Of a DNA stretch of 64,000 nt, positions 9,353-33,640 are shown piece by piece; position 1 is the stretch's first letter; each line of letters opens with the position of its first letter. The notes beneath the pieces were generated by a model. That model did not search any database. It saw nothing but the letters and a program-made list of their open reading frames with translations, and had not been told where the DNA came from. The DNA is taken from the NCBI RefSeq assembly GCF_002940685.1, contig NZ_PNFP01000016.1:1-64000 (forward strand), read 5' to 3'. The DNA comes from Ensifer adhaerens (GTDB taxonomy: Bacteria > Pseudomonadota > Alphaproteobacteria > Rhizobiales > Rhizobiaceae). A program made the position numbers and the translations under genes.

Positions 9353-12300
9353 ATGAACATCGATCTTTCCCGCCGCAGCTTCCTGAGGCTCGCCGGCGCA
9401 GGTGCTGCGGCAACCACGCTCGGGGCCATGGGCTTCGGGGCGGCCGAGGCGGCAACTGCCGCCCATGTGCGCGCCTTCAAGCTCACAAGCACCACCGAGA
9501 CCCGCAACGTCTGCACCTACTGTTCGGTCGCCTGCGGCATCCTGATGTATTCCAGGGGTGACCTTGCCGCCGGCGAAAAGGCGGAGCTCATCCACATCGA
9601 GGGTGATGCCGATCATCCGACCAACCGCGGGACGCTCTGTCCCAAGGGCGCGGCGCTCAAGGACTTCGTGAAGTCCGAGACCCGCGCCACCAAGCCGCGC
9701 CACCGCGCTCCGGGCGCAGACACGTGGCAGGACATTTCCTGGGAAGACGCCTTCGACAAGATCGCCCGGGCGATCAAGGACGACCGCGACAAGAACTTCA
9801 TCGAGAAGAACGCGGCCGGCGTCACGGTCAACCGCTGGACGACGATGGGGTTCCTTGCGGCCTCGGGCGGCACCAACGAGACGGGGTGGCTGACCTACAA
9901 GACCGTCCGGTCCCTGGGAGTCCTCGGCTTCGACAACCAGGCACGCGTCTGACACGGCCCCACGGTAGCCAGTTTGGCTCCAACATTTGGCCGCGGCGCA
10001 ATGACGAACGCCTGGACCGACATCAAGAACACCGACCTCGTCATCGTCATGGGTGGCAATGCGGCGGAAGCCCACCCCTGCGGCTTCAAGTGGGTGACGG
10101 AAGCCAAGCACCATCGCGGCGCCCGGCTGATCGTCGTCGATCCGCGCTTCAACCGCACGGCATCGGTCGCCGATGTCTATGCCCCGATCCGTCCCGGCTC
10201 CGACATCGCCTTTCTGATGGGCGCGATCCGCTACTGCATCGAGAACGACAAGGTGCAGTGGGACTACGTCAAGAACTACACCAACGCCACCTATCTGGTG
10301 AACCCGGAGTTCGGCTGGGCCGATGGTCTCTTTAACGGCTATGATGAGGAGAAACGCGACTACGACCGCACCGCCTGGGAATACCAGCTGAACGAGGACG
10401 GGACGGTCAAGACCGATCCGACGCTCACCGACCCGCGCTGTGTCTGGAACCTCCTGAAAGAGCATGTCGCGGCCTACACGCCGGAGTTCGTGGAAAACAT
10501 CTGCGGCACGCCGAGGGATCGCTACCTGAAGATCTGCGAGATGATCGGCGCGACCTCGGCCCGCGACAAGGTGATGACCTCGCTCTATGCGCTCGGCTGG
10601 ACTCAGCATTCCAAGGGCGCCCAGAACATCCGCGGCATGGCGATGCTGCAGCTCATCCTCGGCAATGTCGGCCTGCCGGGCGGCGGGGTGAACGCGCTTC
10701 GCGGCCACTCCAACATTCAAGGGTTGACCGACATCGGCCTGCTTTCCAACTCCCTGCCGGGTTACATGAACCTGGCGACCGAAAAGGAGACGGACTACGC
10801 GACCTACATGTCGACGCGCGGCAACAAGCCGCTCGTTCCGGGCCAGACGAGCTACTGGCAGAACACCCCGAAATTCATGGTCAGCTTCCTGAAGGCCATG
10901 TGGGGCAGCGCTGCGACCAAGGAGAACGACTGGGGCTTCGACTGGCTGCCCAAGCTCGATGTGCCCTACTACGACATCCTCAGGATGTTCGACATGATGA
11001 GCCGCGGCGAGGTGAACCTCTACTTCTGCCAGGGCTTCAACCCGCTTCTGTCCTTCCCGAACAGAGCGAAGGTGACCGAGGGTCTGTCGAAGCTGAAGCT
11101 GCTCGTCACCATCGACCCGCTGCAGACCGAGACGGCGCATTTCTGGGAAAACCACGGCATCTACAACGAGGTGGACTCGGCCAAGATCATGACCGAGGTG
11201 TTGCAGCTTCCTGCGACGTGTTTTGCCGAGGACGAGGGCGCCACCGTCAATTCCGGCCGCTGGCTGCAATGGCACTGGCCCGGCGCGACACCGCCGGGTG
11301 ACGCCAAGCACGACACCTGGATCCTCGCCAACATCTTCCTGCGGGTGCGTGAACTCTACCGCAAGGAAGGCGGGGTTTGCCCCGATCCGATCCTGAACCT
11401 TGCCTGGGATTACAAGGATCCCTACGAGCCCGAGCCTGCCGAGCTTGCCCAGGAGATGAACGGACGGGCGCTGCAAACGCTCTACGATCCGACCGATCCG
11501 ACGAAGGTGCTGGTAGAAGCGGGCAAGCTTCTGCCGAACTTCGGTGTGATGCGTGACGACGGCTCCACCATGGCGGGCTGCTGGATCTATGCCGGCTCCT
11601 GGACGGAGGACGGCAACATGATGGCCCGGCGCGACAACAGCGATCCGGGCGAGATCGGCACCTATCTCAACTGGACCTTCGCCTGGCCGGCAAACCGCCG
11701 CATCCTCTACAATCGTGCCTCCTGCGATCTTGAGGGCAAGCCCTGGGATCCGGCACGCAAACTGATCGAATGGAACGGCGAGCGGTGGGCAGGCTTCGAC
11801 GTGCCCGACATCGCGGTGACGGCAAAGCCCGAGACGGTGATGCCGTTCATCATGACGCCGGAAGGCACCGCCCGCCTGTTTGCCCGCAAGCTGATGCGGG
11901 ACGGGCCTTTCCCCATCCATATGGAACCGTTCGAAAGCCCGGTCGAAAATCCGTTCAACGCCAAGCTTCGCGGCAATCCGGTCGCCCGCATCTTCCCCCA
12001 CGACCTTGAGCAGTTGGGCACGAGCGGCGATTTCCCGTTCGTTGCCACCTCCTATCGCCTGACCGAGCATTTCCACTTCTGGACCAAGCACAGCCGCGTC
12101 AATGCCGTCCTGCAGCCGGAATTTTTCGTGGAGATCAGCGAGGAGCTGGCGGCCGAACGGGGCATTACGAAAGGTGGAAGGGTGCGCGTGTGGAGCGCGC
12201 GCGGCGAGGTCTGGGCGAAGGCGGTGGTGACGAAGCGCATTCGGCCGCTGATCTGCAACGGCAAGCCGGTGCATGTGGTCGGCATTCCCTTGCACTGGGG

Positions 12301-14165: not shown

Positions 14166-14216
14166 CACCGTGAATGCTGCTTGATCCGGCCTTGCGGCCG
14201 GATTGCCGGAGATGCG

Positions 14217-15128
14217 ATGGCAGAAGACGTTCAACCCGATCCCTCCCTCATCGGCGGCGTGCCGACACCGCCCCTTACTCTCCTGCCCGAGCCAGTCAAA
14301 CTGTTCCAGACGCGCGCGCGCCGCTTCGCGTTTCTTGCCGAAAGCAATGCGCTCGCGCCTTATCTCACCTTCCTCTCAGCCCTTTCCAAACTGCAGGCGC
14401 GGCTTGCGGCAACCCTTCCGCCCGTCTCCCCACCCTCTTCGGCGCGCATCGTCGAGGCAATGCGCGCCGCAATGCCACCGATCGACCGGACTGCATTTGC
14501 CGGCGATCCCGAGCTTGCCGCAACGCTCGGCGCGCTGCTCGACGGTGCCGTCGAGATCGCGATGCCCGAACCCGCCCGCCTGGCGCTTGATGCGGTGCGG
14601 GCGGCAAGCGTCGATGATCGGCGCTGGCTGCTTGCAAATATTCTCTCCGATCAGATTCCCGACGACAGCGCCGCACCCCATCTCTTCGTCGCAGCCGCGG
14701 TGCAGGTGCACATGGCGCGGCTCGCCGCGGCGCTCGATGCGGAAGCGCTCGTCCCTGTCGCGCTCGGCGTCTGTCCCGCTTGCGGCGGCCGGCCGGCCAC
14801 CTCGTCCGTGATGGGCGCGCAGGGCGTCGAGAACGTCCGCTATGCCGCCTGCGCCTGCTGCGGCACGCAATGGAACGAAGTGCGGGTAAAGTGCCTCTGT
14901 TGCGGCTCGACCAAGGGCATCAGCTACCGCTCGGTCGAGACATCGGAGGCGACGGTGAAAGCCGAGACCTGCCGGGAATGCCACGCCTGGGTCAAGATCT
15001 TCTACCAGGTGAAGAACCCGAGCCTGGATCCGATCGCCGATGACGTCGGCAGCCTCGGCCTCGATATCCTGATGAAGGAAACCGAGTTCCGCCGCGGCGG
15101 CTTCAACCCCTATCTCGTGGGCTATTGA
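14217..15128 (+). CDS. fdhE: Formate dehydrogenase accessory protein FdhE
   Basis: 303-aa cytoplasmic protein required for assembly of active respiratory formate dehydrogenase. The C-terminal half is a tandem of rubredoxin-like zinc/iron knuckles: CPACGG, CACCGTQW, CLCCGS and CRECHAW. The protein ends with DIGSLG-like residues (DDVGSLGLDILM), as in E. coli FdhE (309 aa). The start at 14217 has GGAG 5 nt upstream; an in-frame ATG twelve codons earlier has no site. It touches selA (stop TGA and ATG share one base), placing Fdh maturation and Sec synthesis in one transcript. Confidence 0.95.
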   Translation: MAEDVQPDPSLIGGVPTPPLTLLPEPVKLFQTRARRFAFLAESNALAPYLTFLSALSKLQARLAATLPPVSPPSSARIVEAMRAAMPPIDRTAFAGDPELAATLGALLDGAVEIAMPEPARLALDAVRAASVDDRRWLLANILSDQIPDDSAAPHLFVAAAVQVHMARLAAALDAEALVPVALGVCPACGGRPATSSVMGAQGVENVRYAACACCGTQWNEVRVKCLCCGSTKGISYRSVETSEATVKAETCRECHAWVKIFYQVKNPSLDPIADDVGSLGLDILMKETEFRRGGFNPYLVGY

Positions 15129-16504
15129 TGCCGGATTTTCGCGTGCTTCCCTCGGTCGACCAGATGCTGACCTCGCCAGAGGGGCTGCTGCTGACTGAAG
15201 AATATGGCCGCCTTGCCGTCGTCACCGCCGTGCGCGCCGGGCTCGAGATTGCGCGAGCAAAAATCCGTGCGGGCGAGGATGGGGCAGCGCTCGCGACCGA
15301 GCTGCCACGCCGTGTTGCCGAGGACCTGGCGGCTGCCGCCCGCTCCGCTCTTCGACCGCTCTTGAACCTCACGGGCACGGTGCTGCACACCAATCTCGGC
15401 CGTGCCATTCTGGCCGAGGAAGCCGTCAGCGCCGCAACCGCCGCTATGGCCAACCCGCTGGCGCTGGAGTTCGACCTTTCGGGCGGCGGGCGGGGTCAGC
15501 GCGACGACCATCTGCGCGGCCTGCTCTGCGAACTGACCGGCTCCGAAGATGCCACCATCGTCAACAACAACGCCGCCGCGGTCCTGATCGCACTCAACAC
15601 GCTCAGCGAAGGCCGCGAGGCGATCGTCTCGCGGGGCGAGTTGATCGAAATCGGCGGCGCCTTCCGCATGCCCGATATCATGGCCCGCGCCGGCGCAAAA
15701 CTGGTGGAAGTGGGCACCACCAACCGCACCCACCCGCGCGACTACGAAGGCGCGATCGGGCCGGAAACCGGCGTCATCCTCAAGGTCCACACGTCCAATT
15801 ACCGGATCGAGGGTTTTACCGCCGAAGTGCCGGCGCCGAGGCTGGCCGAGATTGCGCGCAAGGGCGGTGTCCCGCTTCTCAACGACCTCGGCTCCGGTTC
15901 GCTGGTCGATCTCTCCACCTTCGGGCTGCGGCGTGAACCGACCGTCGCGGAAGCGGTCGCCGAAGGTGCTGATCTCGTCACCTTCTCCGGCGACAAGCTG
16001 CTCGGCGGCCCGCAGGCGGGCTTTATCGTCGGGAAGCGCGACCTGATCGCTGCCATCAACCGCAATCCGCTAAAACGCGCCGTCCGCCTCGACAAGATCC
16101 GCATCGCCGCGCTGGAGGCGACGCTGAGACTTTATCGCGATCCCGACCGGCTTGGGGAACGCCTGCCAACATTGCGTTTCCTCACCCGGCCGCAGGCCGA
16201 AATCGCCGCGCAAGCGACCCGGCTTGCGCCGGCAATCGATGCGCTGCTCCAACCGCACGGCTACTCGGCGGCGCGCTGCGCTTGCCAGAGCCAGGTCGGC
16301 TCCGGCGCCTTGCCGGTCGATACCGTCCCGAGCGCCGGCCTCAGGTTGACAGGCAGTGGCGGCGATGCGCCGGAACGGCTTTCGGCACGGCTCCGCGGCC
16401 TTCCTTTGCCGGTGATCGGCTACATCCGCGATGGCGCGCTGATCCTCGATCTACGCTGCCTTCAGAGCGATCAGATACTGATCGAGGCCCTGGCGGCGCT
16501 ATGA
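15128..16504 (+). CDS. selA: L-seryl-tRNA(Sec) selenium transferase (selenocysteine synthase)
   Basis: 458-aa PLP enzyme converting seryl-tRNA(Sec) to selenocysteyl-tRNA(Sec) using selenophosphate. The PLP lysine is Lys290 in [13 protein letters not shown], aligning with Lys295 of the 463-aa E. coli enzyme. Other family landmarks are [14 protein letters not shown] near residue 80, [22 protein letters not shown] and LNDLGSGSL. It starts at the ATG that shares one base with the fdhE stop and overlaps selB by 4 nt. Confidence 0.96.
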
Positions 16505-18405
16505 TCGTCGGAACCGCAGGGCATATCGACCACGGCAAGACGGCGCTCGTGAAAGCGCTCACCGGCACCGATGCCGATCGCCTTGCCGAAGAGAAGGCCC
16601 GCGGCATCACCATCGACCTTGGCTTTGCCTATGCCGACCTCGGCGGCGGCACGGTCACCGGCTTCGTCGACGTGCCGGGTCACGAGCGGCTGATCCACAC
16701 CATGCTTGCCGGCGCCGGCGGCATCGATTTCGCGCTGCTCGTTGTCGCCGCCGACGATGGCGTCATGCCGCAGACGCGCGAGCATCTCGCCATCCTCGAC
16801 CTGCTGGGCAGCGAACGGGGCATCGTCGCGCTCACCAAGGCCGATCTCGCCGGACCGGAGCGACGCGCGGAAGTGAAAACGGAGATCCGCGCGGCGCTTT
16901 CCGGCACCGGGCTTGCGGGTGCGCCCATCATTGCCGTCTCCGCATTGACCGGCGAAGGTATCGACACTCTCAGCGCGGCACTTGCCGCCGCCGAAGCGGA
17001 AACCGCAGCGCGCAACGACACCGGCCTGCTGCGCTTTGCCGTCGACCGCAGTTTTACGCTTTCAGGCGCCGGCACCGTGGTGACAGGCATGGTCCTTGGC
17101 GGCCGCGTGACGCTCGACGATACCGTCACCGTCAGTCCGTCCGGCCTTGTGGCCCGCGTGCGCGGCATCCATGCGCAGAACCGGAAGGCAGCTGAAGGGC
17201 TTGCCGGCCAGCGCTGCGCGCTGAACCTTGCCGGCGAGCGCGTGACGAAGGACGCAATCCGGCGCGGCGACGTCATCCTGGCCCCACCGCTGCACGCCCC
17301 GACCGACCGGATCGATGCGACGCTCCATGTGCTCGCTTCGGAAGCCAAGCCGATCGGCACCTGGTTTCCCGTGCGGCTGCACAGCCATGCGACAGAAGTC
17401 GGGGCGCGGATCGTGCCCCTTGCCGGCCCGCTCGATGCCGGAACAGAAGGTCTGGTGCAACTGGTTCTCGATCGCCCCATTGCCGCGACGATCGGCGACC
17501 GCTTCATCCTGCGCGACACCTCGGCCAGCCGGACGATCGGCGGCGGCCGTTTTCTCGACCTGCGTCCGCCGGCGCGAAAGCGCGGCACACCGGAGCGGCT
17601 GAATGTCCTCGCCGCATCGGACAACCAGGACCCGGCGGCGGCGCTGGCGGCTCTGATCGAGCTTGCCCCGATCGAACTTTCGGCCTTCCTGCGCGACCGC
17701 GGCCTCGGCGAACAGACACTGCCCCGCCTGCTCACGGACGCCGGGGCCGAGGTCGTCGGCGACCACGCATTCTCTTCCGCGGCCCTTCACCGATTGCGGG
17801 CGAGCCTGACCGACACACTCTCAGCGTTCCACGCCGAGAACCCCGACCTGGCCGGCATCGGCCGCGAGAAGCTCCGGCTTTCGCTGAAGCCGCGCCTGGC
17901 AAAGCCTACGTTCCTGACATTCCTCAAGGCCGAAGCAGCGGCGGGCCGTATCGTGCTCGACGGCGCTTTCCTGCGGCTGCCGGGCCACGTGGTCCGGCTG
18001 ACGCCTGCCGACGAAAGCCTCTGGCAACGCATTCATCCGCAGCTCATTGGCGAGAGCCGCTTCCGGCCGCCGCGGGTGCGCGATCTTGTGCCTCTGCTTG
18101 GCGCCGACGAGCGCGACGTGCGGCGGGTCTTGAAGCTCGCCCAGAAACTCGGGCAGGTTCACGAGATCGCGCACGATCACTTCTTCGCCCGCACGGTCGT
18201 GGAGGAAATGGCAGATATCGTGCTCGACGTCGCAGCGGAGACGGACGATGGCTGGTTCACCGCACCCGCCTTCCGCGACCGGGTGCACAACGGCCGCAAG
18301 GTCGCGATCGAGATCCTCGACTTCTTCGATCGGCTCGGCCTGACCTTGCGCCGGGGAGACTTGCGTCGCATAAATCCCCATCGCAGCGACCTGTTTTCAC
18401 GCTGA
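16501..18405 (+). CDS. selB: Selenocysteine-specific translation elongation factor SelB
   Basis: 634-aa GTPase that brings Sec-tRNA(Sec) to UGA codons marked by a SECIS hairpin. The EF-Tu-like N-terminus has AGHIDHGKT (residues 6-14), the switch region [22 protein letters not shown] and TKADL. The C-terminal third (from about residue 400) holds winged-helix modules, including one near [15 protein letters not shown] and one near [15 protein letters not shown], which in known SelB bind the SECIS. Length suits the family (E. coli 614 aa). The tRNA-Sec gene begins at the very next base after its TGA. Confidence 0.96.
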
Positions 18406-18501
18406 GGAAGGGAATCGTCTCCGGTGGGACGGCCGGACTTCAAATCCGGTTGGGGCAGCGAGCCTGTCCCGGGTGGGTTCGACCCCCACTCCCCTCCGCC
18501 A
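18406..18501 (+). tRNA. selC: tRNA-Sec (anticodon UCA), CCA encoded
   Basis: 96-nt selenocysteine tRNA with all hallmarks: 8-bp acceptor arm, 6-bp D stem (CGTCTC/GGGACG), anticodon stem CCGGA/TCCGG with loop CTTCAAA and anticodon TCA at 18440-18442, long variable arm (GGGGCAG/CTGTCCC), 5-bp T stem GTGGG/CCCAC with loop TTCGACC, discriminator G and encoded CCA. It resembles E. coli selC closely in the D and anticodon arms. It starts directly after the selB stop codon, so it must be processed from the selB transcript or have a promoter inside selB. One oddity is an A-C mismatch at the fourth acceptor pair (18409 with 18494). Confidence 0.97.
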
Positions 18502-18562
18502 GTGCTCGCGCATCGGGGCTGCGCCTGCAATGTACGCAAAGCCGAGACACAACTAAGCGATG

Positions 18563-18919
18563 TTATGCGCGAGATACCCCATTGGGCGGGCGTTCGCTCC
18601 TCGCAACTGTCGCCCGATAAAGGATGCAGAGATCGATACGGCGATCGATCTCCAGTTTGAGAAAAATACGTCGCAGATGCGCGGAAACTGTCCAATGGCT
18701 GATGCCGAGAGCAAGGCCGATCTCCTTGTTCGCCATGCCGCTTGCAACCAGACGGGCGATCTCCTGCTCCCGTGGGGACAGATATGAGCAGCGATCGCGA
18801 AACAGAGAAGGCGGCGTGGCCAGGTCCGGCGGCAAGCTCGGGCTCCTGCTCGCCAGCGGCAGGGAGGATGCAAACGATGTTCTTTCCTCCGGTACTGATG
18901 CCGATGATATCCGTGCCAT
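18563..18919 (-). CDS. Small LuxR-type (GerE) helix-turn-helix regulator
   Basis: 118-aa protein, of which residues 46-108 form a LuxR/FixJ-type HTH: YLSPREQEIARLVASGMANK, then EIGLALGISHWTVSAHLRRI and FLKLEIDRR. There is no receiver or autoinducer domain; the N-terminal 45 residues are Ser/Pro-rich and low in pattern. The ATG has GGGAGG 6 nt upstream, so it is a complete small regulator rather than a broken one. It lies 68 nt downstream of the last gene of the five-gene unknown cluster on the same strand and is the likeliest regulator of that cluster. It is tail-to-tail with selC. Confidence 0.85.
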   Translation of the reverse strand: MARISSASVPEERTSFASSLPLASRSPSLPPDLATPPSLFRDRCSYLSPREQEIARLVASGMANKEIGLALGISHWTVSAHLRRIFLKLEIDRRIDLCILYRATVARSERPPNGVSRA

Positions 18920-18987
18920 TCGGCCCTCCCAAACGAATGAAATAACTCTACGCTTTTTGCCGGATTTCGACCCCGGTCACGATCCTC

Positions 18988-20139
18988 TCAGGTGTAGTTG
19001 ATGCCGCCGAGGATGGACTTGCCCCGGCCTCGCGCCGGTTCGAACGTAACCACGTTCCCGCCATTCAACTTGGGATTCTGCCGAAGCCCCACGGACTCCG
19101 CACTTGTCAGCCAGTCGTCGCAGGCGTCCACGATCGCCTCAAGCAGGGACTCGAAATCGATGCGCACGGTCGTCAGCAGGTAATCTTCCGACAGCCAGCG
19201 CAAGATCTCGCGGCCGGTGACGGCCATGCGGCTGCGCTGCGAGGTGACCGGAATCTCGCGCAGATACCGCTTCGAGATCTCCTCGAGCACATCCCAGGCA
19301 TTGTCGGCGCCGAACAGGTTGATGACGTCGTCGGAGCCCAGGATGTCGAAGGCCTCCTGCAGGAGAACCATGACTTCGCTGCGCAGCACGGCGACATGGC
19401 CGTAGGACACCTGCTTGAGATTGTGCCGAAGGTCGAGTCCGGACCGTCGAACGACGGCCATGCTGCCGAAGGTCTCGCGGATGCCGTCGGGACGCAGGAC
19501 TTCAGACACGCGCTTGTCCTCGAAGAAGCGCGAAACGTGCTGGCAGAAATTGCTCAGAAGTGCATGGAACGCGATGTTCGGCTCGGCACCGGACGGCGGC
19601 GCCACCTCCGTGTAGCCGAAGACCTTGCGGTAGGCCGAACGCCGCTCCCTCTGCGTATACCGCAGCACGCGCTTGCGATCGTACTGGTAAAGCGAGAGCG
19701 CACCCCTGCCGTCGGAAAGGCGGATCTCGCCGGACTGGAACAGTTGCTGCAGCTTCAGGATCGACCGGAACACGCCGGCGCGCTCATGCTGGTAAATGTA
19801 GTAGAGATCGCCGACGGCCGTCAGCCGCTCGCGGCTGATCTGGTCGTCATAGGCGGGAACCAGCGGCGCCGGACGGACCTCGTTCAAGGTGGACGCCACC
19901 TGTTCGCCAAGACCGATCATGCGGCCGAGACCGCCGTCGGTACCCGGTTGGCCGGGCGCCCGCTTCAACGTCTCGTAGATCGCCTCCTCGGCCTCCGTGA
20001 TGTACTGGTTGATCAGTTCGGCCTGCGCCGGCGTTTTGGCCAGTTCGTCCCGGGCATCGCGGACCATTTGCGAACGCAGTCGCTGCAGCCGCCCCAGCAG
20101 ATCGTTGAGACCGCCCAGATTCGTAAGTTCGGTTGCCAT
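18988..20139 (-). CDS. Unknown protein, fifth gene of the selC-adjacent cluster
   Basis: 383 aa, no family recognised. It starts with MATELTNLGGLNDLLGRLQR and is mostly alpha-helical by composition, with probable coiled-coil stretches near residues 8-60 (LGRLQRLRSQMVRDARDELA) and a helical centre (FRSILKLQQLFQSGEIRLS). No signal peptide, membrane helix or catalytic motif is evident. The ribosome site AGGAGG is 7 nt upstream, and the gene is only 11 nt after the 589-aa gene, so the two are cotranscribed. The Arg-rich centre (YDRKRVLRYTQRERRSAYRK) may bind nucleic acid or an acidic partner, such as the acidic first protein of this cluster; that is a guess. Confidence 0.85.
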   Translation of the reverse strand: MATELTNLGGLNDLLGRLQRLRSQMVRDARDELAKTPAQAELINQYITEAEEAIYETLKRAPGQPGTDGGLGRMIGLGEQVASTLNEVRPAPLVPAYDDQISRERLTAVGDLYYIYQHERAGVFRSILKLQQLFQSGEIRLSDGRGALSLYQYDRKRVLRYTQRERRSAYRKVFGYTEVAPPSGAEPNIAFHALLSNFCQHVSRFFEDKRVSEVLRPDGIRETFGSMAVVRRSGLDLRHNLKQVSYGHVAVLRSEVMVLLQEAFDILGSDDVINLFGADNAWDVLEEISKRYLREIPVTSQRSRMAVTGREILRWLSEDYLLTTVRIDFESLLEAIVDACDDWLTSAESVGLRQNPKLNGGNVVTFEPARGRGKSILGGINYT

Positions 20140-20150
20140 CTCGCGTCCTC

Positions 20151-21920
20151 CTAAGCCTTTTCAATGGTCAAGGCCGCAGCCATCGCATCGGCAGCATTGA
20201 GCGCTTTGTCCAGCAGGTACTTCAGTTCGACCAGCTGCCGTATCGGCCCGGGCAGCCGAACCGAGAAGCTCAGGCTGCCCGCACCGGAGACGAATTGCTC
20301 AGCCGCCTGCCTGAGGGAACGAAGCTCGCAGCGGAGAATCTTGAGGTCGCCGGCGTGCAGGTTGGCAGCCTTGTTTTCCGGGCGCGAGAACGGTTCGGCG
20401 ACCGCGCGCACCCATCCGAGGAACTGCCCGAGAGACAGGCCGCCGAACGTCTCGGGTGATCCTTCCTGCGCCGGAACGAGCACCAGATCCTGCTCGATCG
20501 GGTCGGTGCCGGTGCGTTCGAGTTGATCTTCGAGCGCAACAGCGGCGCTGAGCGTCGCCGTCAGTGCCAGCTCGAGCCGGGCCGAGTTGACACCACGCTG
20601 GGCGCCCTCCTGAACCGAAACGATCCGGCGGCCGATCGAGCAGAGAAGACCGAAGACGGCCCGCAGTTCGGCGGCGACCTCCTCCTCCCGGACCGCCGAA
20701 ACCGGCGCCGCAAGGTCGTTTTCGATGACCTGGACGAGTTCCCTGATGAGCTCGCGCACGTCGTCGCTCGTAAAACATCTCCGCCAGTTCGCAACCGTAT
20801 GAATCTCGCCGAGCTCCAGATATTCAAGGATTGTCCTGATCACCCGGCGAAACTGATATTTGGCCCGCGCCCGGTTGATCCCGAGCGGATCGCGCGCGGT
20901 CTCCACCAGGGCGTCGAGTTCGTCCTTGATCCGCCGGCGCATAGACGCAGGGTCGAAAAGCCCGCGAACCGTTTCGAAACGGTTCATCGCCGGCAACCGC
21001 GCGATCGTCGCATTCAGCGCGTTCGCGTCCGTGCGCAGAATCTCGGAATTGACCAACGCCTCGCCTCTCAGCAGCTGCGACGGATCTGCCGTGCTGCGGA
21101 GCTCCGGCGCGGCATCGGTCCGGTAATAGACGCGGAAACCATCACGCTCCTTCCAGGCGAAGTTGCGCATCAGGCCGTCGATCAGCCGGCTGCGCGTCAA
21201 CTCCAGCTTGCCCTCGCTGCCGAACTGGACGCCTTCATGCGGCAGCCCCATCACATCGAGGGTCGCCATCATCTGATCGCTGACGGTTTCGAAGCGGCCG
21301 CTCGCACGGCTGGTCTCCATCGGCCGGGCGGAGCCCGCCTGGAAACTTGCCATCATCACCGCCAGATCACGAATGGCCTCGGCAGCGGGCTGCTCATTCG
21401 CCGGGTGGATGACCGGACGAGCCATGCTGGTCAGGGTAGGGGTAAGGTCGATGACGGTAGCCATCAGATTGTCTGTCAACTCGGAAAGTTCGTCGAGCAA
21501 CTCATCCAGGCCCTCGACAGTATGGCGGTCGTCCTCGACCTCGCGCATCGACGTGCTCTCATCGATCTTGAGGCTTGCCAGATCGGCGGACCCATAGACC
21601 CGGATGTCAGACAGGATGACCCGGGATCGGAGCATGTGGATCAGAGCCAAGACGCTCTGGAGCGCACTGCTGGCGCGCTCATCCGCGACCGCCTTCTCAG
21701 CCCTTTCTTCAAGGATAAGGGCTTTCGGCACGCTCTCTGCCAAATGTTCAAGGGAAATCGTCAGGTCCTTGTGGTCGACCCGCTCCGTTACGCCGTCAAG
21801 AAAGGCATGGAGTCGACCCAGGCACTCTCCCAGCGCCTTCAAAGGCCGACCGAGTGCATGGAAAACGTTCTCCAGCTCGTAACTCGCGTTCTCGATTGAC
21901 TTCTTTTCGATCCCGGCCAT
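20151..21920 (-). CDS. Unknown large helical protein, fourth gene of the selC-adjacent cluster
   Basis: 589 aa, no family recognised. It is rich in Leu, Glu and Ala with many heptad-like runs (residues 1-130 and 470-589), suggesting a long helical, possibly coiled-coil, soluble protein. There is no signal peptide, transmembrane segment, Walker motif or obvious catalytic signature. The start is the ATG at 21920, with GGGGAGG 8 nt upstream; a GTG three codons earlier would sit on top of the ribosome site. It begins 5 nt after the stop of the metallopeptidase gene. The layout suggests a structural or scaffold partner of its neighbours. Confidence 0.85.
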   Translation of the reverse strand: MAGIEKKSIENASYELENVFHALGRPLKALGECLGRLHAFLDGVTERVDHKDLTISLEHLAESVPKALILEERAEKAVADERASSALQSVLALIHMLRSRVILSDIRVYGSADLASLKIDESTSMREVEDDRHTVEGLDELLDELSELTDNLMATVIDLTPTLTSMARPVIHPANEQPAAEAIRDLAVMMASFQAGSARPMETSRASGRFETVSDQMMATLDVMGLPHEGVQFGSEGKLELTRSRLIDGLMRNFAWKERDGFRVYYRTDAAPELRSTADPSQLLRGEALVNSEILRTDANALNATIARLPAMNRFETVRGLFDPASMRRRIKDELDALVETARDPLGINRARAKYQFRRVIRTILEYLELGEIHTVANWRRCFTSDDVRELIRELVQVIENDLAAPVSAVREEEVAAELRAVFGLLCSIGRRIVSVQEGAQRGVNSARLELALTATLSAAVALEDQLERTGTDPIEQDLVLVPAQEGSPETFGGLSLGQFLGWVRAVAEPFSRPENKAANLHAGDLKILRCELRSLRQAAEQFVSGAGSLSFSVRLPGPIRQLVELKYLLDKALNAADAMAAALTIEKA

Positions 21921-21925
21921 TGCGG

Positions 21926-23245
21926 TCACCTCCCCAACGTCTCGTAGAAGTTGCGATGGATGATCTCCGGCGCGGCTTTCTTGCGGATCAGCGCGATGCG
22001 CGCTGCTGCAATCAAGAAACGTTCCGGAAGTACGCCTGTATCGGTGCCTGTCTCGAGCCGCGCGGCGGCTTCTCGCACGAGCGCTGCGTGCTTGGGCTGA
22101 AAGCGTACCACGTCAGCGAGCGCCCGTCCTCCATATTCCTTGAAGCTCGTGAAGCACATCGCGTCGAGCGCAGCGTCTATCTGCTGCGGCAACTTCGCAC
22201 GCACCCAGTCCGGCACCTGCCTCCAGACGGAGGCGGGGTAGAGCATGTCCCAGGACCGGCGGAACGCCTGTGCATCCTCGCCGAACCCCATCCGCTCCAG
22301 GAGACGGATGTTGAGCGGCACCCTGATGATCGGCGTCGGGTGCACGGCCTCGTCGGAATAGGCGGCGGTCTGCTGGCGGGAGCGTCCGACGACATCCATG
22401 AGCGAGCCGACATAGGCAGGCCCAATCAGGAGCACGCCGGCGAGATCGGCATAGGCCTCCTTGTGCCACCGCGCCCAGACCTCCGCGTTGCGCTCCGGCA
22501 GCTTGTGCTGGTCGAAGGCAAGCTTGATGCGATGCGGCATGATCTCCCAAAGCTCAAGGTCGTTCTGCAGATTGTGCGCGACCTCATGCGGCACAGCTCC
22601 CAGCGACCAGGGGTTGACCAGCCGATGAAACGGTACCTTGACCAGCGGAAACGGATTTTGCCGCTGGCCGAGCTTGGACAATTTCACGCCACGCCGATAG
22701 GTCGCCGGGCCGAACCCCGCTTCCATATAGGCAAACGGAACCGGAGACGGGATCGACCGCGCCCGCCCAAGGCCGAGATAGACCGCCTGGTAACAATCGA
22801 GCGCGATCCGGTCGATCCCGCGAAGCCAATGGCCGAAGGGGCCGATGCGCTGGCCAAAGAGGTTGAGGTAGAACTCCCAGATCTTCTCCGTCTCGCTGGC
22901 GAGCGCCTGGTTGCGCTCCTTCAGTTGCAAGAGCAGGGCGCGGCCGGAATCGCCGGCCTTCGCGATGTTGCCGGCGAGCGTCGCCAGCCGCCTGTCCTCG
23001 ACCATCTGCCGCTTGCGTGCCTCCTCGATGAGGCGGTTTACCGCCTGGATGTGAGACCGGCTGGGCGATTCAGGCCCGGAACCGAACTCGTCCTCGCGGA
23101 AGGCTCGAAGGCCCGTCACGTAGCGTCTGGCATTGACCGCCGTGCGCACGGCAAAGAACGGCAAGGCGTTGCCGCTGGTGGCCGCCGCCGCGCCGGGTCG
23201 GCTCTTCACCTTCGTCGCTACCGGTATCGTCGCCACGACGTTCAT
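21926..23245 (-). CDS. HExxH zinc metallopeptidase-like protein, third gene of the selC-adjacent cluster
   Basis: 439 aa. The catalytic signature is HEVAH at residues 220-224 (in GAVPHEVAHNLQND), followed about 40 residues on by HKEAYADLAG. There Glu263 or Asp267 could be the third zinc ligand, the pattern of gluzincin-type peptidases (HExxH ... ExxxD). The N-terminal third is basic, then coiled (residues 62-125), and there is no signal peptide, so it is either cytosolic or exported by an unknown route. The start at 23245 gives a 4-nt ATGA overlap with the upstream gene and has GGAG 8 nt upstream, better than the ATG two codons earlier. I do not recognise the exact family, so substrate is unknown; processing of a cluster partner is one reasonable idea. 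Confidence 0.82.
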   Translation of the reverse strand: MNVVATIPVATKVKSRPGAAAATSGNALPFFAVRTAVNARRYVTGLRAFREDEFGSGPESPSRSHIQAVNRLIEEARKRQMVEDRRLATLAGNIAKAGDSGRALLLQLKERNQALASETEKIWEFYLNLFGQRIGPFGHWLRGIDRIALDCYQAVYLGLGRARSIPSPVPFAYMEAGFGPATYRRGVKLSKLGQRQNPFPLVKVPFHRLVNPWSLGAVPHEVAHNLQNDLELWEIMPHRIKLAFDQHKLPERNAEVWARWHKEAYADLAGVLLIGPAYVGSLMDVVGRSRQQTAAYSDEAVHPTPIIRVPLNIRLLERMGFGEDAQAFRRSWDMLYPASVWRQVPDWVRAKLPQQIDAALDAMCFTSFKEYGGRALADVVRFQPKHAALVREAAARLETGTDTGVLPERFLIAAARIALIRKKAAPEIIHRNFYETLGR

Positions 23246-24246
23246 CGCCATATCTCCGGGTCCGAGAACAACTCGTCGCTTTCTTTCGACGGGACGGCCC
23301 TCACCGCGAAGCTGGCGGCGATGATGGCAAGTTTTGCCATGGCCGGCAGGTGGGGCGCGAGCGCCGCGTTCACCACGTCGGCCAGCATCGGGACGGCACG
23401 ATCATCGATGATGTTGAGGCGCCGCGCCGCATCGGCAACCGCCGCCGACGTCATTGCATTGATACCGGCATCTGCGACGTCACCGGCATTCGGATCCGAG
23501 AACAGACGCGTGAATTCCGCCACGAAGCGGTCGCTGGCAAGCCCGACAAAACGGGCGCGGACCTGAGCGATCTCGGAGGGCAGCAGTGTCGGATTGCGCC
23601 GAGCGATCGCCTGGTCCGTCAGCAAATTGCCGGTGGCGGCCCGGGCAAAGGCGACCCTGGCAAGGCCGGCAAGTCGCTGCCGCGCCTGTTGCGCGCTGTA
23701 CCTCGCCTGCTTGCTCGCCTGTCCCCTTGACGCCCAACGTCTGACGTCGCGCGCCGCCCGCAGGTTGGCTTCGATCCTGTTGCGCCGCGCCGCCTTTGAC
23801 CTCGGGTCTTCGAACTCGACCCCCTCACCCCGACCCGACGTGGCCAGTCTTCGGTCAAGGCTGCGAAGCAGATAGGCCCTGGCCGCTGCATTCGACCAGA
23901 CGGAGCCGGCAAGCCGGCGGGCACTGCCTTCCTCTGCAGCCGGTTTCTCGAGCCCGCGCGAAAACATGTCGACTGCGGCCATGCGAAGCGCGAGGCGCAC
24001 CAGATGCTGCCGTTCGGCGCTGCCGCGTTCGCGCAGCCGCATCGCATAGGTGCCCGGCAGTCGCTGCAAGAGAAGCGGGATCGCCCACCGTGCCGCGGCA
24101 AGGACGAGTTCTCGTCCGGACCCGGAGTGCCCTCCCGGCGCGCCGGCGAGGCGGCCGGGGCGCTGCGACCGCCCCGGTCGTGCCGCGCCGCGCCTGTCCA
24201 CCACTTCTATGGTGTAGGCCGGGGCCATATGGCTGCTCGCGTACAT
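23242..24246 (-). CDS. Unknown Arg/Ala-rich protein, second gene of the selC-adjacent cluster
   Basis: 334 aa, no family recognised. It is strongly basic and Ala/Arg-rich (for example ARRNRIEANLRAARDVRRWA, then SKQARYSAQQARQRLAGLAR), with a weakly hydrophobic patch near residues 48-62 (AARWAIPLLLQRLP) and another near 300-325 (PHLPAMAKLAIIAASFAV). It could bind nucleic acid or membranes. It starts 36 nt after the acidic first protein, whose charge is opposite, and overlaps the metallopeptidase gene by 4 nt. The ribosome site is weak, so translation may depend on coupling to the first gene. Confidence 0.8.
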   Translation of the reverse strand: MYASSHMAPAYTIEVVDRRGAARPGRSQRPGRLAGAPGGHSGSGRELVLAAARWAIPLLLQRLPGTYAMRLRERGSAERQHLVRLALRMAAVDMFSRGLEKPAAEEGSARRLAGSVWSNAAARAYLLRSLDRRLATSGRGEGVEFEDPRSKAARRNRIEANLRAARDVRRWASRGQASKQARYSAQQARQRLAGLARVAFARAATGNLLTDQAIARRNPTLLPSEIAQVRARFVGLASDRFVAEFTRLFSDPNAGDVADAGINAMTSAAVADAARRLNIIDDRAVPMLADVVNAALAPHLPAMAKLAIIAASFAVRAVPSKESDELFSDPEIWR

Positions 24247-24282
24247 CGTCGTTCTCGCCAGCCTGGGTTGCGGTTGAAGCGT

Positions 24283-25161
24283 TCAGTAGAAGCGTTCTGC
24301 CCGGGCGACTGCGCGTCGATCGATCTGCCGCTTCTTGGCGACATTGCCCGCGAGCGCCTTCGCAATCGTGTTCGGATTGGTCAGCGTCCGGTTTGCCTGC
24401 TTGGCCATGACGCGAATGGCGGTTCGCGGCGTAACCGGTTTTCCCGTCTGCGCCTTGCGGGTGAGAGTGGCGATGGTGCGGCGCTGGATCGTCGGCAGCG
24501 TCCGGATCAGGGTGCGGGCGCGCGGATCGTTGGTGGAAGCCAGCCGGCGGGCCACGTCGGCGCTCGCCTTTGCCAGAACCGGTGTCACCGTCTTGACGGC
24601 GAGAGGCGCGCGACTGGAGATGGTTATCGTGATCGCCGACCCCAGCGCGAGCGCATCGCTCACGGGCGCCTTCGACGCGGCAACGGCCATCGCCTCGGAA
24701 AGCTGATCGTCGATTGCCGGAACGCGGATCATGGCGTTCATTTCGTCTTCGGTCTCGCCTTCGTCTTCCGCCTCGAGCGAGCGCACGACAGACCCGAGCT
24801 TGCCGCCGATGGCAGCGCCGGCCGGCCCGCCGAGCGCGCCGCCGATCACGGTGCCGATCTGCGGGGCGAACTTCTTGGCGATCGGTGCCACGACCTTGGC
24901 TGCCTTCTTCGCTGCCTTCCACACCGAGCCGAGGAACTGGTCGCCCTCGGCCTCCATGGTAAACTCGTCCTCGAAATCGTAGCCGTCGGCGGAGAAATCT
25001 TCAGCTTCGAGGTCGAAGTAGTTGCCTTCGGGTTCGTTGAAGCCCTCGTCCTCAAAATCTTGAAAATCGAGAGCATCGCCGGCTTCGGCGGCGAGGAACC
25101 CTCCCTCATCCTCTCCGAGAAGTGCTTCAAGTCCGTTGAGCGAGCCCCTGTCCTGTGCCAT
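24283..25161 (-). CDS. Acidic protein with Gly/Ala-rich membrane-active-like segment, first gene of the selC-adjacent cluster
   Basis: 292 aa with three clear zones. Residues 16-75 are very acidic and aromatic (EDEGFNEPEGNYFDLEAED). Residues 77-127 form a Lys/Ala amphipathic stretch followed by a Gly-rich hydrophobic one (LGSVWKAAKKAAKVVAPIAK, then GTVIGGALGGPAGAAIGGKL), resembling pore-forming peptides or phage/bacteriocin membrane segments. Residues 190-292 are basic (RTLPTIQRRTIATLTRKAQT and on). There is no classical signal peptide. The order acidic leader, membrane-like core, basic tail suggests a protein held soluble and then inserted or cleaved; that is inference. GGGAGG lies 5-8 nt upstream of the ATG. 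It is the first gene of the operon, expressed from the 25162-25502 region. Confidence 0.85.
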   Translation of the reverse strand: MAQDRGSLNGLEALLGEDEGGFLAAEAGDALDFQDFEDEGFNEPEGNYFDLEAEDFSADGYDFEDEFTMEAEGDQFLGSVWKAAKKAAKVVAPIAKKFAPQIGTVIGGALGGPAGAAIGGKLGSVVRSLEAEDEGETEDEMNAMIRVPAIDDQLSEAMAVAASKAPVSDALALGSAITITISSRAPLAVKTVTPVLAKASADVARRLASTNDPRARTLIRTLPTIQRRTIATLTRKAQTGKPVTPRTAIRVMAKQANRTLTNPNTIAKALAGNVAKKRQIDRRAVARAERFY

Positions 25162-25502
25162 TTCATCCTCCCTCGAAGATGGGCCGCTGCGGCCCGAAAA
25201 GAGATGAAGGAAAGTGATACTCCCATTGCCGAGGGGGCGTTAGAGACACGCATTCAGTAGCTAAGTTGAGCTAGTCAAATACGGCCCCCGGCCGCCTGTG
25301 TCGGCTCCGGCCCAGGGGTATCGATCTTGCGCTCGCGCCCACGGAAAGGCCGAGCAGACCACCCGGAAAATTGGGATTTCGGGCCGACGAGCGGCTTCAC
25401 GCCGGTCCCGGCTGCGCAGCGACAAAGCCGTGCGCCGACGCCGGTGCACGACCGGCGAACGCTATTGCCCGCCGGTCGGCGCGGCGCAACCGCCGCAACC
25501 GG
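25162..25502. promoter_or_regulatory. Upstream region of the selC-adjacent unknown operon
   Basis: 341 nt between gluconate kinase (which ends at 25503) and the first gene of the unknown operon, both on the minus strand. Open frames here lack ribosome sites. The operon promoter must lie here unless it is read through from gntT-gntK. The notable element is a 16-bp dyad TAGCT-N6-AGCTA at 25258-25273, about 100 nt upstream of the ATG. Confidence 0.55.
25258..25273. promoter_or_regulatory. Perfect dyad TAGCT-AAGTTG-AGCTA, candidate operator
   Basis: Two perfect 5-bp arms around a 6-bp spacer, in an AT-richer island within GC-rich DNA, 97 nt upstream of the first gene of the unknown operon. Size and symmetry suit a LuxR/FixJ-type dimer, and a small LuxR-type regulator closes the same cluster. 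The link is inference. Confidence 0.35.
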
Positions 25503-33476: not shown

Positions 33477-33516
33477 GAAAACAAAAGAGCCCGCCGCGGG
33501 AGGAGCGGCAGGCTCT
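33477..33516 (-). terminator. Rho-independent terminator of the anti-SD sRNA
   Basis: A stem of 11 pairs with one mismatch (AGAGCCYGCCGC type arms, 33486-33497 with 33505-33516) is followed on the minus strand by a U-rich run at 33477-33486. Its loop is itself one of the anti-SD loops, so terminator and target-binding site are the same hairpin. Confidence 0.75.
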
Positions 33517-33640
33517 CTAAAAATCGATCAGCAGCCTGGGAGGAGGAGTGGCGCTGATCTCGTGAACGATCCATGGGAGGAGGAGATCGTTCACCGCATC
33601 GAAGCTCTGCGGGAGGAGATGCATTGCTTCGATGAGGTGA
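33477..33640 (-). ncRNA. Multi-hairpin sRNA with four anti-Shine-Dalgarno loops (cuckoo RNA type)
   Basis: Read on the minus strand, this segment folds into four successive hairpins, each showing CUCCUCCC or CCUCCUCCC in its loop: stems 33597-33605/33626-33634, 33562-33571/33585-33594, 33526-33532/33553-33559, and 33486-33497/33505-33516. The last stem is followed by TTTTGTTTTC, a Rho-independent terminator, which sets the strand and 3' end. Loops of this sequence pair with ribosome-binding sites. The family known as cuckoo RNAs (with CcsR RNAs in Rhodobacter) has exactly this design. The 5' end is not defined. No small DUF1127 gene, the usual companion in Rhodobacter, is seen upstream. Confidence 0.75.

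Follow-up and report, generated by a model that had tools for sequence, protein, structure and literature searches.

The DNA considered here is a stretch of 64 kb from Ensifer adhaerens (contig NZ_PNFP01000016.1 of assembly GCF_002940685.1, positions 1-64,000), referred to below as the window. It carries, beside selC, a group of six minus-strand genes, numbered 1 to 6 in the order of transcription (Table 1), of which genes 1, 3, 5 and 6 are conserved together in six bacterial phyla. The open reading frame (ORF) list confirmed the coordinates, gaps, overlaps and adjacency to selC that had been given in an initial annotation of this DNA. Going from gene 1 to gene 6, the genes are separated by 36 nucleotides (nt), an ATGA overlap, 5 nt, 11 nt and 68 nt, as calculated from the ORF coordinates. 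The computed isoelectric points (pI) of the six products are 5.1, 11.4, 10.0, 5.2, 6.3 and 10.3, so that the gene 1 product is acidic and that of gene 2 strongly basic, as had been described. The initial annotation had also recognised no family for four of the five operon genes, and in profile searches genes 1-5 have no match above cut-off in Pfam, NCBIfam, PADLOC or PHROG. The last gene, annotated as a LuxR-type regulator, does encode a GerE helix-turn-helix domain (56.6 bits against a Pfam cut-off of 23.5, E 2e-15) and is without a receiver domain. The closest named carrier of the operon is E. adhaerens L18 (L004), whose gene 3 is 98% identical. Sequence comparison with this strain shows all six genes to be under purifying selection, the ratios of nonsynonymous to synonymous substitution rates (dN/dS) of genes 1-6 being 0.030, 0.194, 0.085, 0.410, 0.063 and 0.171. 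The G+C content of the operon is 0.642, that of the window 0.643.

Table 1. Features of the operon and its surroundings in the window
Feature	Position	Strand	Remarks
Gene 1	24283-25161	-	292 amino acid (aa) ORF
Gene 2	23242-24246	-	334 aa ORF
Gene 3	21926-23245	-	439 aa; mechanical ORF extends to 23251
Gene 4	20151-21920	-	589 aa from ATG; GTG at 21929 would add 3 aa
Gene 5	18988-20139	-	383 aa ORF
Gene 6, small LuxR/GerE-type regulator	18563-18919	-	118 aa; GerE/LuxR helix-turn-helix
selC	18405-18501	+	Rfam tRNA-Sec match
Accessory insert between selC and gluconate genes	18529-25483	.	missing in genomes G010 and G005
Palindromic operator-like site GACTAGCTCAACTTAGCTACTG	25255-25276	-	115 to 94 nt before gene 1

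The strongest argument for treating these genes as a unit comes from their distribution. A scan of 84,980 species genomes with a profile of gene 3 gave 105 confirmed stretches, and the 80 best loci were retained; 62 of these were testable, with 3 kb or more before gene 3 and 6.5 kb or more after it, and the remaining loci were truncated. A LuxR gene was counted when it lay within 9 kb with E < 1e-20, and the group of each locus was assigned from record titles. The gene 1 family was found in all 62 testable loci, gene 5 in 61, the LuxR gene in 55, and genes 1, 3 and 5 together with the LuxR gene in 54. By group, the full set is present in 12/12 loci of Alphaproteobacteria, 27/27 of Actinomycetota, 7/11 of Acidobacteriota, 5/9 of Cyanobacteriota, 2/2 of Chloroflexota and 1/1 of Verrucomicrobiota; a Planctomycetota metagenome-assembled genome (L041), cut short and thus outside the testable loci, carries it as well. 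A tandem pair of gene 1 copies occurs in 40 of the 62, and the LuxR gene is upstream and divergent in 26 loci, downstream and co-oriented in 23, and arranged otherwise in 6. The homologues are therefore not scattered but remain linked in distant genomes, and this linkage, together with the conserved palindrome before gene 1 described below, strongly supports the earlier proposal that genes 1-5 form one coordinated system, of which the LuxR gene is, judged by its conserved neighbourhood, a part. Since the gene 5 tree mostly follows the phyla (9 label changes, where the minimum possible is 6 and the shuffled mean 33.7), rampant transfer between phyla was rejected as an explanation; within this tree the window groups with four Sphingomonas rows with a support of only 86/65. 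Scoring of 8000 candidates for each gene yielded 1345 database relatives of gene 3, 923 of gene 5 and 886 of gene 1. Among the matches listed (120 each), these are annotated as hypothetical or uncharacterized, the exception being one gene 1 relative described as DUF1320 domain-containing.

The region before gene 1 contains a further conserved element. A palindrome-constrained sampler applied to 72 upstream regions yielded GnGTCGCnCAnnTGnGCGACnC, with a score of 786 against 415-439 in four shuffled sets. The site is a palindrome of 22 base pairs about 115 nt before gene 1, and in the window it has a p of 0.008 with a matrix trained without alphaproteobacteria. When both cyanobacteria and alphaproteobacteria were left out of training, 12/12 held-out cyanobacterial regions were recovered at p <= 0.05, and a matrix from 59 non-alphaproteobacterial regions (20 restarts) recovered 8/13 held-out alphaproteobacterial regions at the same level, the window included; an earlier cross-test, which converged on a poorer motif, had recovered 4/13. 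A score of at least 9 is reached by 53/59 regions, which are training data and include near-copies, and by 4/460 control upstream regions, but by only 1/13 alphaproteobacterial ones. A control on the coding DNA of gene 1 scored 866, above the real upstream set, and was replaced by the upstream regions of other genes because it consists of homologous repetitive coding DNA; these controls gave 474-493 (68 sequences) against 699 for the real regions (59 sequences), the sets being unequal in number and restarts. The core TAGCT-N6-AGCTA occurs at one place in the 7.5-Mb genome of the window, both strands considered, against 8 for the reversed pattern. Sequence conservation thus shows a shared palindromic site that accompanies the operon, and since the LuxR gene and the dyad are kept together, binding of the gene 6 protein to the palindrome is likely.

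Gene 3 had been annotated as a protease on account of its HEVAH motif, which is present at residues 220-224. The residues H220, E221 and H224 of this HExxH motif are invariant in 21 sequences, and so are E263 and D267 of a downstream ExxxD, the third-ligand Glu being assigned by conservation. Both motifs are shared with the gluzincins (M13 PepO, M4 aureolysin and M1 aminopeptidases), which also top the VIA list in a fold comparison. Unlike them, gene 3 has no Pfam match above cut-off, and the structural similarity is weak. The product looks like a gluzincin-like zinc peptidase, a predicted role that is well supported by the sequence and weakly by the fold.

The gene 1 protein is laid out as an acidic N-terminus, a cationic amphipathic helix (residues 76-100), a Gly-rich zipper (101-125), an acidic linker and a cationic C-terminus. 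Proteins of its family likewise combine acidic stretches with amphipathic helices, which often start with FLG or FFG. In the precursors of amphibian antimicrobial peptides, an acidic spacer is joined to a cationic helix, and the layout of gene 1 (an acidic stretch followed by an amphipathic helix, often with that start) is alike. This is an analogy and not homology: gene 1 is bacterial and cytoplasmic by appearance, with no signal peptide seen, although no dedicated prediction was made. Against the Glycine zipper 2TM family (PF05433) gene 1 scores 11.6 bits, below the Pfam cut-off of 24.2. The layout fits a predicted membrane-active role. Further copies of the gene 1 family lie outside the gene 1/gene 3 core in L026 (3282-3995 and 15491-16756) and L029 (14642-15664). 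As for gene 2, it is related to the genes in the same position in Sphingomonas, a profile of which matches the window (hmmsearch, E 1.2e-13), and in Salipiger (L015, E 1.7e-6); the same-position proteins of the alphaproteobacterial loci L016 (E 0.027), L010-L012, L050 and L060 have no significant match. A relationship between gene 2 and gene 1 of other phyla was rejected (hhalign probability 0.3-0.6). Gene 2, the basic partner of the initial annotation, is an alphaproteobacterial part of the system, and in other phyla a second gene 1 paralogue mostly occupies its place.

Genes 4 and 5 had been described as large helical proteins, which agrees with the present results: gene 4 is helical, with a hypervariable N-terminal domain (about 21375-21920) followed by a conserved core, and gene 5 is all-helical, with 55 invariant columns across 58 homologues. 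Compared with L18 in blocks of 37 residues, gene 4 of the window is 30-54% identical over its first 185 residues and 78-100% in the rest; its whole-gene dN/dS of 0.41 compares with 0.03-0.19 for the other genes. Gene 4 of Alphaproteobacteria is related to gene 4 of other phyla (hhalign 97.6). The cyanobacterial counterpart at the place of the N-terminal domain looks partly transthyretin-like, TTR-52 being matched in 4/30 members with a best E of 0.00064. Loci from other phyla often carry a separate small gene between genes 3 and 4. Its homology to gene 4 was rejected (hhalign 0.2-0.9); position and size suggest that it is equivalent to the N-terminal domain. An in-frame Met stands at the domain junction in 13/13 alphaproteobacterial proteins (the window, where Met169 lies at 21423-21425, and L005, L006, L008-L012, L014-L016, L050 and L060). 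By one criterion, a Shine-Dalgarno 5-mer precedes this Met in 11/13, the window not among them, against 2/126 other in-frame Met. The junction Met and the Shine-Dalgarno excess suggest that gene 4 is a fusion of two genes whose internal start was retained in relatives, where two gene 4 products may be made. In the Salipiger locus (L015), a 395-aa protein without Pfam match (14167-15351) is placed between gene 5 and the LuxR gene.

Outside Alphaproteobacteria the operon has recurrent neighbours. In a flank of 3.5 kb after gene 5, an M20 peptidase gene is found in 29 of 51 loci, Amidohydro_2 in 10 and a trypsin-like peptidase in 3; none of the three appears in the 13 alphaproteobacterial loci. 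A Pfam-type count over 123 of at least 148 flanking proteins, from loci up to L064, gave M20 22, Amidohydro_2 6, trypsin 3 and M28 2.

The closest described counterparts are the peptide-processing systems of zincin metallopeptidases and FxSxx-COOH proteins, which include an acidic precursor type (Kaur et al., 2020, PMC7159879). As far as the available portion of that article describes them, they share with this operon a zincin-like peptidase gene that adjoins precursor-like genes; their radical-SAM, vWA, MoxR and AP-ATPase genes are not in this operon, and nothing in them corresponds to genes 4, 5 and the LuxR gene. Gene 3 agrees with the FxSxx-type zincins by motif, the named family not being the same, and no Pfam match to a radical-SAM or AP-ATPase/VMAP partner was found in genes 1-6. 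In the same portion of the article the FxSxx-COOH precursors are small and fast-diverging, whereas gene 1 encodes 292 aa, has a dN/dS of 0.03 and ends in ARAERFY, without an FxSxx, RxD or acidic-run end. A second, divergent system is found in the genus mate G001 (L112, 1003-9485), with a gene 3 homologue that contains HETGH (hidden Markov model E 1.4e-101), two Gly-zipper acidic proteins (E 1.1e-19 and 8.9e-9) and an Amidohydro_2 gene, as in the present system or its neighbours. It differs in having a PG-binding/GIY-YIG protein and no match to gene 4, 5 or 6 in the tested stretch; its 724-aa protein was rejected as a gene 5 relative (hhalign 0.3). A search of open-licence PMC papers found none on this operon. 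Its core families are nameless, and none of the systems described in the searched libraries and papers matches the gene set.

Sequence conservation shows that operon, regulator and palindrome have been kept together in six phyla. From this we propose, tentatively and at well below an even chance, a membrane-active system that is switched by LuxR, armed by a peptidase and masked by acidic stretches. The gene 6 protein would bind the palindrome and control the operon as a unit. Gene 1, and the second copy elsewhere, would be kept harmless by acidic stretches that offset the cationic amphipathic helix and the Gly-zipper, until gene 3, as a zinc endopeptidase, cleaves close to the border between acidic and amphipathic parts, releasing the membrane-binding segments. 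Genes 4 and 5 could form a platform that holds precursor and peptidase, the variable N-terminal domain of gene 4 meeting a changing partner or trigger, and in other phyla the M20 exopeptidases may shorten the peptides or eliminate them. Ultimately, membranes would be damaged, either those of the own cell or, after lysis, those of competitors. A more specific version is unlikely: a phylum-crossing peptide-arming system in which polyprotein-like gene 1 precursors carry acidic spacers as masks for at least one membrane-active helix, with gene 3 as the dedicated peptidase. Genes 4 and 5 would then be the platform for loading, its recognition domain being exchangeable, and a single LuxR protein would act as the switch through a single, old operator that is shared. 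Several nameless families (genes 1, 3, 4, 5 and the small gene between 3 and 4 elsewhere) belong to one conserved machine with a cross-phylum regulator and control site, which makes the system directly testable, since switch, peptidase and substrate are each accessible to assays. Should the reading as masked proteins be true, it would represent a new bacterial way to store and arm membrane-active proteins; if gene 3 processes gene 1, the system would become a far variant of the zincin-plus-precursor kind.

Other explanations account for part of these observations. The block-charged gene 1 and gene 2 proteins might self-assemble into an intracellular structure or store (a condensate, a membrane-bound scaffold or a reserve), organised by genes 4 and 5, with the peptidases as turnover enzymes. 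The strongly charged, repetitive gene 1 proteins, the slow evolution of genes 1, 3 and 5, and the exopeptidase and amidohydrolase neighbours (29/51 and 10/51 loci) would agree with this; however, a store has no need for amphipathic and Gly-zipper segments, and the hypervariable gene 4 domain is unusual for one. We judge this reading rather improbable; together with the next one it is the main rival of the proposed system. A conflict system for self-killing or against phages, in which gene 4 would be the variable sensor and gene 3/gene 1 the effector, would explain the variable domain and the rare, patchy occurrence of gene 5 (4/385 alphaproteobacterial, 5/244 cyanobacterial and 1/296 actinobacterial genomes, the centre genome counted in each). 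Distant gene 5 relatives moreover adjoin S8 peptidases and a protein with a weak, below-cut-off resemblance to Trypco2 (E 0.0098), a family that PMC7159879 names from conflict systems. This reading is nevertheless doubtful: genes 1-5 have no PADLOC match above noise (none for genes 1, 3, 4 and 5, and E 0.055 for gene 2), the PADLOC matches of the 123 flanking proteins are scattered, with one member in each of the 25 families listed out of 36, and no NTPase or nucleotide-signal family is found by Pfam among its own genes.

Two further possibilities are far less probable. That the operon supplies cargo to extracellular contractile injection systems (eCIS), or is an accessory module of them, is very unlikely. 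PF06841, the tube family of the eCIS type, occurs in 20 of the 39 tested genomes with the operon (that of the window and those of 38 of the 80 named loci), a count without matched background, but it is missing in the other 19, and the alternative is already weak because the genome of the window has the operon and no PF06841 match. The least probable is an export apparatus, as contemplated in the initial annotation. Large helical proteins and a Gly-zipper segment could belong to one, yet Pfam and NCBIfam detect no family of ATPases, channels or signal peptidases among genes 1-6, and the idea finds no support.

With regard to mobility, the operon sits next to selC as an accessory insert: in the genomes with an empty site, selC is followed by the gluconate region after 92 (G010) and 166 (G005) bases. 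Close gene 3 relatives occur in 2 of 16 genomes of the genus, to which G001 adds a 27% relative in a different locus type, and 3 of 61 relatives match overall. No integrase family was found by Pfam among the six genes, a two-pattern scan of IMG/VR confirmed no gene 3 match, and no gene 5 relative was confirmed in phage records. Gene 5 relatives are present in five plasmid records, with 56% identity in one of them and 24-27% in the other four. Distant gene 5 relatives lie in multi-gene clusters of a Burkholderia pyrrocinia plasmid (L118, 3218-9843) and a Tolypothrix plasmid (L119, 5539-15710), accompanied by an S8 peptidase, a TIG protein or a weak Trypco2-like one, and common families without name; the former additionally contains a patatin-like phospholipase and a cyclase-domain protein. 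Furthermore, selC looks like an insertion hotspot in the genus, as the selB end and selC are split in three genomes, by about 97 kb in G005 (C1 878066-975259, with a repeat of about 32 nt), 6 kb in G008 (C3 297417-303596) and 3 kb in G012 (C2 1126937-1130396). Elsewhere in the window, a SECIS_3 element lies at 9947-10005 on the plus strand and an alphaproteobacterial ar14 small RNA at 33482-33600 on the minus strand.

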